Positions 20,401-41,400 of a stretch of DNA of 64,000 bases are shown here, piece by piece. The notes beneath the pieces are model-generated. The model was not told the DNA's origin, did no database searches, and worked only from the letters and a program-made list of their open reading frames with translations. Positions within the stretch are counted from its first letter, which is position 1; each line of letters begins with the position of its first letter. The stretch spans positions 13,424,402 to 13,488,401 of the forward strand of contig NC_054756.1 in the NCBI RefSeq assembly GCF_018143015.1. The letters are read 5' to 3'. The DNA is from Lytechinus variegatus. Its lineage: Eukaryota > Echinodermata > Echinoidea > Temnopleuroida > Toxopneustidae. The position numbers and the translations under genes are program-made.

Positions 20401-23400
20401 AGCGCGAGCTGAATTTTTTTAGTATAGTGTCCTGAAAACAGGAAAAGGTACTTGTTTAGGACTGATTGTAGTTACTCATGAAGAAAATACATATCTCACT
20501 ACACAGACAATGCGAGTGCTGAGAGCGAGCTTAAATTCCTTTATATATATTCTGACCTGAAAGCTTGATACTTTAAGCATTTATGGTACCAATGATTAAA
20601 ACTAAAAGATCAATCTAAAAGAACAATACATGCGAGCGCAAAGCGCGAGCTGAAAATTTTGATATTTCGATCTTAAAAAAGGACAGTTTAATGGACTTTT
20701 TTTTAAAAAAGAACAAGATATATATATATATATATCTAACAAATGATTATTGCAAATCGAAGCGGGAGTTCTTTCTAAGGTTTAGAACTCAAAACGGGAC
20801 ATTGTATTCACCTATTTAATTATGAAAAGTATGGGGTTTTGCTCAAAAAATCATGCGAGCGCGAAGCGCGAGCTGAAAATTTTTACATTCCAGTTGGAAA
20901 GGCGGACATTTTTAGCACGCGATTTTAAATAAATGTTTAAATCTTAAATAATAGTATAGTAGTAGAAGTAGTAGTAGTAATAGAAGTAGTAGTAGTAGTA
21001 GTAGTAGTAGTAGTAGTAGTAGTAGTAGTAGTGGTAGTAGTTGTATTAGTTGTAGTAGTAGCAGTAGTAGTAGTAGTAGTAGTAGTAGTAGTAGTAGTAG
21101 TAGTAGTAGTAGTAGTAGTAGTAGTAGCAGCAGTAGTAGTAGTAGTAATAGTAGTAGTAGTAGTGGTAGTAGTTGTATTAGTTGTAGTAGTAGCAGTAGT
21201 AGTAGTAGTAGTAGTAGTAGTAGTAGTAGTAGTAGTAGCAGCAGTAGTAGCAGTAGTAGCAGTAGTAGTAGTAGTAGTAGTAGTAGTAGTAGTAGTAGTA
21301 GTAGTAGTAGTAGTAGTAGTAGTAGTAATAGTAGTATAAAGCAGCAGCAGTAGTAGTGGTAGTAGTATACAGTGGTAAGAGTAGTGATAGATGTAGTAGT
21401 CATAAGATAATAGTAGTAGTAGTAGTAGAAGTAGTAGTAGTAGTGGTAGTAGTAGCAGTAGTAGTAGTAGTAGCACTAGTCGTAGTAGCACTAGTCGTAG
21501 TCTAGTAGTGGTAGTACTAGAAGTGGTGGTGGTAGTAGCAGTAGTAGTAGTAGTAGTAATAGTAGTAGTAGTAGTAGTAGTAGTAGTGGTAGTAGTTGTA
21601 TTAGTTGTAGTAGTAGCAGTAGTAGTAGTAGTAGTAGTAGTAGTAGTAGTAGTAGTAGTAGTAGTAGTAGTAGTAGTAGTAGCAGCAGTAGTAGCAGTAG
21701 TAGTAGTAGTAGTAGTAGTAGTAGTAGTAGTAGTAGTAGTAGTAGTAGTAGTAGTAGTAGTAGTAGTGGTAGTACTAGAAGTGGTGGTGGTAGTAGCAGT
21801 AGTAGTAGTAGTAGTAATAGTAGTAGTAGTAGTGGTAGTAGTTGTATTAGTTGTAGTAGTAGTAGTAGTAGTAGTAGTAGTAGTAGTAGTAGTAGTAGTA
21901 GTAGTAGCAGCAGTAGTAGCAGAAGTAGTAGTAGTAGTAGTAGTAGTAGTAGTAGTAGTAGTAGTAGTAGTAGTAGTAGTAGTAGTAGTAGTAGTAGTAG
22001 TAGTAGTAGTAGTAGTAGTAGTAGTAGTAATAGTAGTATATACACTGAAAAGATAACTTTGTCAATTGACAAATATAAATTTGTCATTAATGTGGTTTAA
22101 TTTAACAAATTAATAAATTTGTCATGCCAAAGATTTGTCATTATAGATTTGTCATGCACCATAACATGACGAATTTTAATTTGTCATGAAAAGTGGTCTA
22201 ATTTGACAAACCTTTTTCAAAGTTTGTCATTGCAACATTTTAATTCCTCATTCTCATTTTTTAATTTGTTTTTTACGTTCATCAATTTGTAATGCATTTT
22301 GACGTTAATTTGTCATGTAATAGTCAGAAAGCACACCTGTGATAAACAAACAAATACAGATAGTTAATATTTTTGTAAGTTTTAATAGAACCTCGAAATT
22401 CCTGAGGAAACAAATTCAAAATACATCAAATCCAGTAAACACTTGCCAGCAAGTAACATTTTATAAAATATTTACTAAAATTCACTGCAAAGTCAAAATA
22501 CTCTGCATTAAGGATGTTAATCTCCTTTGCAGTCTGTTTGATAATTCTTCCATCACAGTACGAGTGTCAAGCAGACTGCAAAGGAGATTAGCTAAAACTC
22601 CTGTAAGACCAACAAACAATCTTTATCCTGACAAAAAATTCTTTTCGATTCCCAGTAATAACCATTGCAACAAATTCAGTTACAAACCTAGCCTACATCA
22701 AATTCACTACATGTACAATGTCAATATACTCTGCATTAAGGACATAGAGAAGTTTTGGCTTATCTCCTTAGCAGCCTGATTGCGACTTCTGCCGTCACAG
22801 TAAGATTTTCAAGCAGGCTGCAAAGGAGATAAACTAAAACTCCTATATCCTTAAGAGCAACAAACAATCTTCATCCCAACAACAAATTCTTTTCATTAAT
22901 TACCACTACTGTATAACAATTGCAACAAATTCAGTTACAAAGATTAGGGCCTACATTAAATTGTCTAGCAATGTCAAAATACTTTGCATTAAAGTATAGC
23001 TAGAGGAGTTTTAGCTAATCTCCTTCGCAGTCTGATTGAGACTCCTGCTGTCACAGTACAAGTGTTAAGCAGGCTGCGAAGGAGATTAGCTAAAACTCCT
23101 CGATATATTCTTAAGAGCAACAAGCAATCTTCGTCCTGACAACAAATTCTTTTCAGTTACCACTACTGTATAACAATTGCAACAAATTCGGTTAGAACAA
23201 TTAGGGCCTACATCAAACTCACTAAAAATGTCAAAATACTTTGCATTAACCTGGGGCATATGCATTGCAGGGGGTGCGGGGTGTACGTTCGCAAAATGCG
23301 AAAGGTTTACTTTTGTGCGTCTGCGTTAATCAGTTGCCTTTTTTTACGTTTGAAACATAAAATTGGGTTGTCAAATTGCCACCCCCCTAGCTTTTTTGGT

Positions 23401-38400: not shown

Positions 38401-41400
38401 ACACAAATTAAGCACAAAATGAGGCCCGTTTAAAAATTGCAAACATATGCCATTGGTTATACCTTATGCTTTGTGGCGGGGATTTTACTGTGCATTCCAT
38501 TGCATGTTTGTGTTACAATATCTGCATGTTTATGTTTGTAACACAGAAGGATGGACATGAAACAATTGGAGGTTTCAAAAAATGTTTTACTTTGGTGGGG
38601 GGGGCAAGCTTGTCGCTCATGTTTAACAATTAGCTAGTTGTTTAGGTGGTGAATGCAAGCTTTTAGCGTGCTGGATAACTGGGGGGGGGGGTGCAACACC
38701 CCCCCCCCCCTTCGTTAGACTAAGGTTAATGCATGCAGTCATTTATATGTACAGTACACATAGAAGGCAATTTCTTGTATCCAGGAAAATACAAGAAATT
38801 ATTTTTTGACCTTTGACCTGTATTTCTTTCTTTGCACCATCACCATGGCATTGTTGTTTACATGTAGGCTTACGAATTTCACAAAGAATCAATCTCTTCA
38901 CAGGATCTTACAATATCGTTTATGCACGGGAACTGGGTGGCAGTCATCTTGTTGCCATTTCCCCTCCAACGGGCTCGTCTAATCAAAATGGCCGTCCTTA
39001 AATCGAGCTTTATTTAGGTCTACATTTGAAGCACTCTAGGCCTATATCTACGGTTGGAACCACTACGTCACTTTCACATTTCAGTTTCCAAAACAAAAAT
39101 AGGCCTAGATCTAATTCTCATTATTAAAAAAAATTCCATTCCAGATTTTACCACCGGGATTGGCACTGCCATTCATGCATTCCTGTCATACCACTTTAAA
39201 ATTTGCTCCTATTCAAATTAAGCCTATAAAATCGGGCCTATGTTGACCTGAATAAAGAAAACAGTAGACAAATCCGACTTGGCACATTCCAGAATTACCT
39301 GCACCTCACCGGCAGCCATTTATCACAAAGCTCGATCGTGATTAGCGCTCCTGATGCGATGCAAGTGTCAAGCGCTAGGAGGCCTATAGCCTCACGACAG
39401 TGAACGTTGCAAATTGAAATCTAACTTAGCGAATTATGCTAGTTTATGTGTAAATTGCCCTTGTAATGGTGTCGGTGGGGCATAGGAATGTGCTAAGTCG
39501 GATTTGTAGATACATGTAGGCCAAGGCCATGAAAATGATGATAGTGAATCACCCAGTCAAAAGACCTGGCAATCATATGGCACAGTCAGTAAGTAAATTA
39601 GGCCTGGGCCAACACTACTGACTGTCATGAGACATGAGTGTAGCAAACAGTCTGCAGCTCCTGACAGGTCTCTCCTTATTGCTACTTATTGAATTTGAGT
39701 ACCGGTACAAATATTAACTGATAGGCCGAACAGGTAGCCTATGTCTACTTAGGCCTAGTCCCAACAATTACAGATCTACTTTTCTTAAACTTAATTAGGC
39801 CCTAAACAATTAGGCCTAAGTTTAACGTAAAACATTTAAGTTAGGCCCTAAATTTATCCCTAGATCTAGGCCTACCTCAGACTGGTGAAACTAGCCTACA
39901 CGTACATGAGTACAGGACACCCGGTCCAGACCAGGGCCAGGCAAGACACACATGACAAGACAGTACGGTACACGCATTCGACATTGTTGGACTCAATCGC
40001 ATTTAATAAGCTTAGGCCTACATTGTATTGTCATTGTGTGCTACCTCGAGCGAAGTTCGTGCAGGCTCAACTCCACTTCACTACCCCTTACACTACACTC
40101 CACCTACCGGTACTTTCGGGTAGGTGGGAGACGGGAGTGTGGTGTAGTGAGTGGGCCTGCACGAACTTCGCTCGAGGTAGCCGTGTGCATGCAGGTATGC
40201 ATACTCAATTTACTAATATTTCGGTGAAAAACACTTCACTATTATAGAATTTCATACAAAAGTTATCTCCACAGTAATATACTACAATCAAATTCAATAA
40301 TTAATCATTCAATTTATTTTTTTAGTACAAAAGTTTACCTTTTTCGATCTTCCCAAGCCTTGCCTCGCAGCTAAATCACGGCGACCGGCGAGTGATTCGA
40401 AAGACGCTGATTATGTGCGGGGTGTCCCAAACTGTCTTCAGGAGCTAAATTTGTCATGCATTTTGCGTCAACAAATTGATTTGTTTTTCAGCAAATAATT
40501 TGTAATACAATTCGTTATGGCCGACTTTAAATCGTCATTTCTACATTGACTGCGAAGAGGATTTGTCAATTACGGTTGCGAAGATTCGTCACGCAAATTA
40601 ATCAGTCATGCGCAAGTTTGTTTTTGTCAACACCAGTTGAAACTTTGTAATAGTGCTCGATCAATTTGTTATGTTACTTCCATGAGTTTGTCATTTCACA
40701 GTTATATCGCAAAACAAATTATTTTACCCCGATTGACGAATTAATCGGGCCTTGTGACAAAGTTATCTTTTCAGTGTAGCAGCAGCAGTAGAAGTGGTAG
40801 TAGTATACAGTGGTAAGAGTAGTGATAGATGTAGTAGTCATAAGATAATAGTAGTAGTAGTAGTAGAAGTAGTAGTAGTAGTGGTAGTAGTAGCAGTAGT
40901 AGTAGTAGTAGCACTAGTCGTAGTAGCACTAGTCGTAGTCACTGGCGGATCCAGGGGGCACAGCCGGCCCGTCAACCCCCCCCCCCCCCCTTATTGAGAG
41001 GAATGATTAAAATTTGTAATGTAAATTTGCCGTTAAAAGAGAAGTGTGCCCCCCCTGGTCATTTTTTTCTTGGGAAGATGTGCCACCCCCTATAGAAAAA
41101 TACTCGACCCGCCCCTGGTAGAAGTAGTATAGTAGCAGAGTAAAGTAGGAGGCAATTAAAACAAACAATTTTGAATTTTCCGGTTTGATATACCGGTAAA
41201 TGGAAAATCGCTGTCCCTAGAAAGTATGTCAAAATAGGCCAATATAATCTATGAGACATAAAACAATTTCTACGTTCTTTATTTCAAGCAAATCATAACA
41301 TGGTGAGAGATTTATCCTTACCTGTAGCTACTGCTGAGGATTCAAATTCTTCTTCAAGTGAAACAAAGAGAACAACAAAACTAGAAATGATCCCATATGT

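Follow-up and report, generated by a model that had tools for sequence, protein, structure and literature searches.

A large two-gene CACTA transposon, probably autonomous, and its internally deleted relatives in the sea urchin Lytechinus variegatus

As far as we are aware, knowledge of intact autonomous transposons of the CACTA (EnSpm) superfamily, together with a defined set of copies that depend on them, comes mainly from plants. Here we describe a member of this superfamily, about 18.7 kb long, at 22043..40776 of a 64,000-nucleotide window (the whole stretch of DNA analysed) from the sea urchin Lytechinus variegatus (NCBI RefSeq assembly GCF_018143015.1, contig NC_054756.1, positions 13,424,402 to 13,488,401 of the forward strand). 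Judged from its sequence, the element is most probably an intact autonomous cut-and-paste transposon (rough probability 90%). A search of titles and displayed abstracts found no description of it.

Extensive study of the CACTA superfamily has so far been in plants, according to one source, which also reports a CACTA element from an animal, with ends in CCC and duplications of 2 bp (PMC4298943). The TRC elements (SmTRC1 of Schistosoma) are animal relatives of CACTA having Transposase_21, a CXXC motif and a second protein; a 2-bp duplication was given for 7 of 14 copies, relatives were named in Strongylocentrotus, Danio and Aedes, and the authors detected no relatives of the other TRC proteins in other animal or fungal elements (PMC1636069). 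The CMCT lineages, including ESTA, are outlined by a DDE transposase that carries C(2)C and H(3-4)H motifs, mostly CA..TG termini and a duplication of 2-5 bp (PMC12730594).

Ends, target site and copies in the genome

The borders and end repeats were located as follows.

22041..22042, unstranded: left 2-bp target-site duplication, TA (flanks read; genome copies)
22043..22064, plus strand: left terminal inverted repeat, 22 bp, starting CACTGAAAAG (22/22 against the right end)
40755..40776, minus strand: right terminal inverted repeat (22/22 against the left end)
40777..40778, unstranded: right 2-bp target-site duplication, TA (flanks read; genome copies)
20974..21502, plus strand: duplicated target block without the element, a related empty site one base off (alignment to joined flanks)
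22058..22315, unstranded: left subterminal TTTGTCA/TGACAAA repeats, 10 sites (motif count)
40450..40761, unstranded: right subterminal TTTGTCA/TGACAAA repeats, 5 sites (motif count)

The terminal inverted repeats (TIRs) are identical at 22 of 22 positions (22043-22064 against the complement of 40755-40776), both starting CACTGAAAAG with TA directly outside, which is matched with the first-pass annotation, and copies elsewhere in the genome back both borders. By chance alone, a 64-kb sequence should hold about 0.0005 perfect 22-bp inverted pairs. An (AGT)n array is broken by the element exactly at the insertion point. The first-pass annotation had also placed a preserved empty site next to the element. 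A junction-spanning block is indeed there: 20974-21502 aligns with the joined flanks right across the junction, with 162 of 163 bases matching in the right part, and a left part that is simple repeat with a 33-base gap and several mismatches. But the block carries AA where the target of the element is TA, which makes it a paralogous duplicate of the target block and not the exact empty allele.

The motif TTTGTCA/TGACAAA was found 15 times in the outer 680 bp, whereas in 2000 single-base shuffles it averaged 0.15 occurrences and never exceeded 3. Counted by region, there were 15 sites in the outer 700 bp and 4 in the 18,034-bp interior.

We searched the assembly containing the window (869.6 Mb). 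The outer 170 bp of the left end had 29 matches (21 at 98% or above) and the outer 200 bp of the right end had 26, of which 19 cover at least 195 bases at 97-100% identity; the window's own ends are included in these numbers. Sequence was taken for 19 other copies (20 stretches), and those 16 for which a single stretch held both ends constituted the measured set, 6838-9045 bp long. Further end matches on C1, C4 and C11 lie outside this set, two stretches (L018 and L028) had one end only, and one copy split over two stretches (L026 and L027), with 13,534 bp between its ends and CA outside both, was left out of the gap and identity counts.

The search for copies with the same ends and flanks, proposed by the first-pass annotation, gave a clear answer: matching 2-bp duplications were present in 16 of 16 measured copies (TA 12, AA 4) and 3-bp duplications in none. 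Together with the window copy TA was duplicated in 13/17 and AA in 4/17, and CA in one further copy. The ends do not surround unrelated DNA, as the shorter copies are relatives with common internal gaps. For one copy (L023) the joined flanks matched across the junction at 40 of 40 scored places (2372 candidates), and all four loci inspected among these had an exact empty site. By visual inspection, three of the 17 insertions (L010, L012 and the window copy) lie within repeats of simple or tandem type. A chance pairing of unrelated CACTG ends around ordinary genes was rejected, and we consider its probability practically negligible: it is refuted by the genome copies with their 16/16 duplications, empty sites and common gaps, and by the small number of inverted pairs expected.

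The transposase gene and gene 2

Both genes lie on the minus strand.

32675..35128, minus strand: transposase gene, single open coding exon, 817 amino acids from Met (ATG and TAA checked)
25487..32507, minus strand: gene 2, seven coding exons, 523 amino acids (frame open through all exons; six GT-AG introns)
32107-32507, 31342-31503, 30714-30804, 29662-30066, 28478-28628, 27716-27786, 25487-25777, minus strand: gene 2 exons (open frame)

Two multi-part genes had been expected; two genes are there and gene 2 is split into seven exons, but the transposase coding region is unsplit, in one frame at 32675-35128 (830 amino acids from stop to stop, reaching 35167). The transposase kept the catalytic residues in the pattern D, D, C(2)C, H(3)H, E. 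Its aligned relatives were 21-72% identical to the window protein and gave weak matches to Transposase_21 and DUF4218; Transposase_21 (PF02992) was matched by 17 of 30 alignment members at E up to 10, with a best value of 2.4e-5. We assigned the protein to the tnp2 type because its aligned relatives match PF02992 and because it keeps the catalytic and C(2)C/H(3)H residues.

The predicted model of the transposase showed a RAG1/Transib-like core and a BAH-like tail. Among the matches listed, the best solved structures for the predicted fold were RAG1 (12-13% identity) and Transib (7-8%), and the sequence itself gave two matches to solved structures, at E 0.2. The predicted RAG1-like core is a kinship of fold only and not membership of RAG/Transib. 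We hypothesise that the predicted BAH-like tail may influence target choice, which is testable. One search of open-licence papers found none joining CACTA, transposase and BAH domain, and the link may nonetheless be published.

The gene 2 protein is 100% identical to isoform X3 of LOC121430903 (RefSeq model, Lytechinus variegatus), which is an independent gene model. A relative in the starfish Asterias amurensis is 39% identical, on a contig equal in size to that of a transposase relative (P0007) of the same species. The Holothuria transposase model P0016 continues into gene 2-like sequence (52 aligned residues, E 5e-6), the transposase model P0104 of the beetle Psylliodes is gene 2-like near its C terminus (224-column alignment, 21%, E 2e-4), both E values being from single comparisons, and in a second sea urchin family (family B, described below) gene 2 exons lie downstream of the transposase. 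From these arrangements, the order of transposase and gene 2 is probably old.

Pfam gave no family for the gene 2 protein at E up to 1. With the limit raised to E 5 there was still none, and the starfish relative had a single match, at the level of chance (E 0.39); PF02017 (CIDE-N) is present in the beetle model and not in the window protein. A further homologue search from the two-member alignment added nothing. The predicted structure, made from 3 sequences, had a mean predicted local distance difference test score (pLDDT) of 42, too poor for structure search. A resemblance of the protein to fish SAMD3-like proteins, which we had considered, was not confirmed. By analogy with TNPA, gene 2 may act at the element ends.

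Deleted copies, a second family and a possible source of transposase

Relative to the window copy the shorter copies have two gaps, and the window copy carries one nested repeat.

28889..39394, unstranded: segment of about 10.5 kb absent from 16/16 measured shorter copies (copy alignment)
25899..27277, unstranded: tandem units of about 153-163 bp within a gene 2 intron, missing in all 16 measured shorter copies (repeat scan and copy alignment)
36336..36945, unstranded: nested high-copy repeat with inverted ends, about 610 bp, not original element (genome search)

Across the 16 shorter copies, 0-7 of the 10,506 bases of 28889-39394 were covered, so that the gap takes out the transposase and four gene 2 exons, and 0 of the 1379 bases of 25899-27277. 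The breakpoints of both gaps agree within a few bases in all 16. The simplest reading of the larger gap is one ancestral internal deletion followed by amplification; the smaller one may be a deletion in the shorter copies or equally an insertion in the window copy. A first look at the genome gave 2618 candidates for the nested repeat; 40 were scored, and 39 of these were places other than the window, with 93-95% identity. With this repeat, and with 25899-27277 absent from all 16 shorter copies, part of the 18.7 kb may be later addition.

A genome search with the transposase protein gave 56 matches (54 of 77 candidates scored), and the sole close match was the window's own. Next came one broken copy at 60% identity and then, at 47-48%, eight places of which seven lack stops. 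The non-coding interior at 37000-39390 was likewise found at the window locus only.

Family B was recognized with a reference copy of 16,801 bp at C3:27108886-27125686 (L029, L030), with an 11-bp TIR CACTGAAAACA and a TG duplication; a first matched-end scan found no ends, and the 11-bp pair came from a looser scan. Six of seven other loci were checked, and four had both ends and two had one end. The four two-ended loci measured 16,776-16,819 bp and all had matching 2-bp duplications, giving TG, TG, TA, AA and AA over five copies. Several near-identical copies carry intact transposase frames. Family B is like the window element in its transposase (48% identical), gene order, 2-bp duplication and large size (16.8 kb), but it is unlike it in its TIR and subterminal motif, and the ends diverge after CACTGAAAA. 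It is a second, young two-gene CACTA family. The first-pass annotation had regarded 18.7 kb as unusual; with five family B copies at 16.78-16.82 kb this size is not exceptional for the group in this genome, and we gave up size as the surprise.

Because the gaps are common to 16 copies and no copy but that of the window was found to have this transposase, the window copy is likely the autonomous element in a young family whose other members are largely deletion derivatives. As the sole locus found encoding this transposase, it could be a trans-acting source for the shorter copies. In the mechanism we propose, a transposase that would be made and working, of RNase-H-like DDE type, would pair the two ends, aided by the many subterminal TTTGTCA sites and probably by the gene 2 protein; it would then excise the element and join it to a staggered target, giving the 2-bp duplication, and would also move the shorter copies from the window locus in trans.

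Several points weigh against this reading. The shorter copies were 97.0-99.7% identical among themselves and 93.6-94.5% to the window copy in common parts; it means that they did not arise recently from the window copy and may have been moved by another source that was lost or is missing from the assembly. The window transposase itself gave no match to Transposase_21, the scores of eight relatives, among those listed, were below the curated cut-off, and the element holds at least one nested insertion (36336-36945).

The identity values, together with the intact transposase frames of family B, would fit a window copy that is autonomous in form and not the driver, the shorter copies being spread by a closer autonomous copy that was lost or is absent from the assembly, or else by a related family's transposase, for instance that of the 16.8-kb family. 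We think this quite possible, though short of even odds: in medians over 200-bp bins the two outermost left bins were 99.0% and 98.0% identical to the window, whereas inner bins were mostly 91-97% (lowest 82.1%), though the last right bin was just 96.0%, and the ends and subterminal motifs of family B differ from those of the window element. It is unlikely, in our judgement, that the element is a dead relic, immobile with frames open by luck or recency. The single-copy coding part and the nested repeat would agree with a relic; against it stand the 830-codon open frame, the seven open gene 2 exons with GT-AG introns, the perfect ends and duplication, and the kept catalytic residues. We regard the element as apparently intact, as the first-pass annotation did.

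Going further than an autonomous window copy, an animal CACTA transposase with RAG1-like core and BAH-like tail, with a second gene, might be the single source of currently spreading deletion derivatives; through its chromatin-reading BAH-like domain the state of the chromatin would guide insertion or excision, a role like that of the PHD finger in RAG2. We hold this reading quite unlikely; as one component of it, gene 2 would be conserved among echinoderms and perhaps also have relatives in insects.

Other repeats were noticed inside the element. At 24627-25281, units of 53 bp form a large, imperfect inverted array whose arms measure about 208 bp at 93%, and shorter copies have the array too; tandem units of about 257 bp with internal palindromes lie near the left end (22503-23249), and an inverted 30-bp pair, 97% complementary and 82 bp apart, near the right end (40040-40181). 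Rfam gave no match at gathering scores in the whole 64-kb window. To the left of the element, two minus-strand open frames at 14463-15305 (Major Facilitator, E 6.9e-4, below cut-off) and 19540-19962 (E 2.8e-8, just at cut-off) are perhaps exons of one transporter gene.

With a candidate source locus, 16 shorter copies of known breakpoints, exact empty sites and a second intact family in one chromosome-scale sea urchin genome, two-protein CACTA transposition would become testable in an animal, and the element is well suited to such study. Two features stand out, the single-source structure of the family and the RAG1-like core that is predicted together with a BAH-like tail; through this core, an animal relative of CACTA would join the broader group that gave rise to the immune recombinase.

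Comparison with known systems

The TIR starts of the form CACT(A/G), the duplication within 2-3 bp and the clustered short subterminal repeats are those of CACTA/EnSpm, and the tnp2-type (Transposase_21) DDE transposase was recognized through aligned relatives. Its membership rests on features that were all tested (the ends, the length of the duplication, the repeats near the ends and the type of transposase), and the element is a new member of the known CACTA kind and not a new kind of element; the genome copies agree, and the first-pass classification is upheld.

Maize En/Spm (TNPD, TNPA and defective dSpm) shares with the sea urchin element the CACT ends, many subterminal repeats, a tnp2-type DDE transposase, a second protein gene, and one autonomous copy with internally deleted relatives. 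The sea urchin element differs in its end core CACTG, in a gene 2 without Pfam match and in separate coding regions for transposase and gene 2; plant CACTA elements duplicate 3 bp, whereas it duplicates 2 bp.

The TRC elements are similar in Transposase_21, 2-bp duplication, CXXC and second protein, but their TIRs start CCC and those of the sea urchin element CACTG, which sets it outside the TRC subgroup; the animal elements given there are 4.5, 5.2 and 9.2 kb against 18.7 kb (PMC1636069). ESTA and other CMCT elements have a similar DDE transposase with C(2)C and H motif, similar termini and duplication range, but ESTA, described from fungi, duplicates TA, whereas the dinucleotide varies in the sea urchin family (PMC12730594).

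That the element belongs to a CMC-type lineage other than CACTA (Mirage, Chapaev, Transib, or ESTA with its TA duplications) is very unlikely in our opinion. TA duplicated in 13/17 copies and the best solved folds, RAG1 and Transib, would speak for it, but AA (4/17), CA (one further copy) and the five family B duplications show that the 2-bp duplication is not fixed as TA, the ends start CACTG, and the relatives weakly match Transposase_21 and DUF4218. The fold library may hold no CACTA, Mirage or Chapaev structure, so the fold listing cannot choose among lineages. Transib and RAG make a 5-bp duplication, whereas the sea urchin copies have 2 bp; what they share with the CACTA transposase described here is the RAG1-like core fold of the predicted model.

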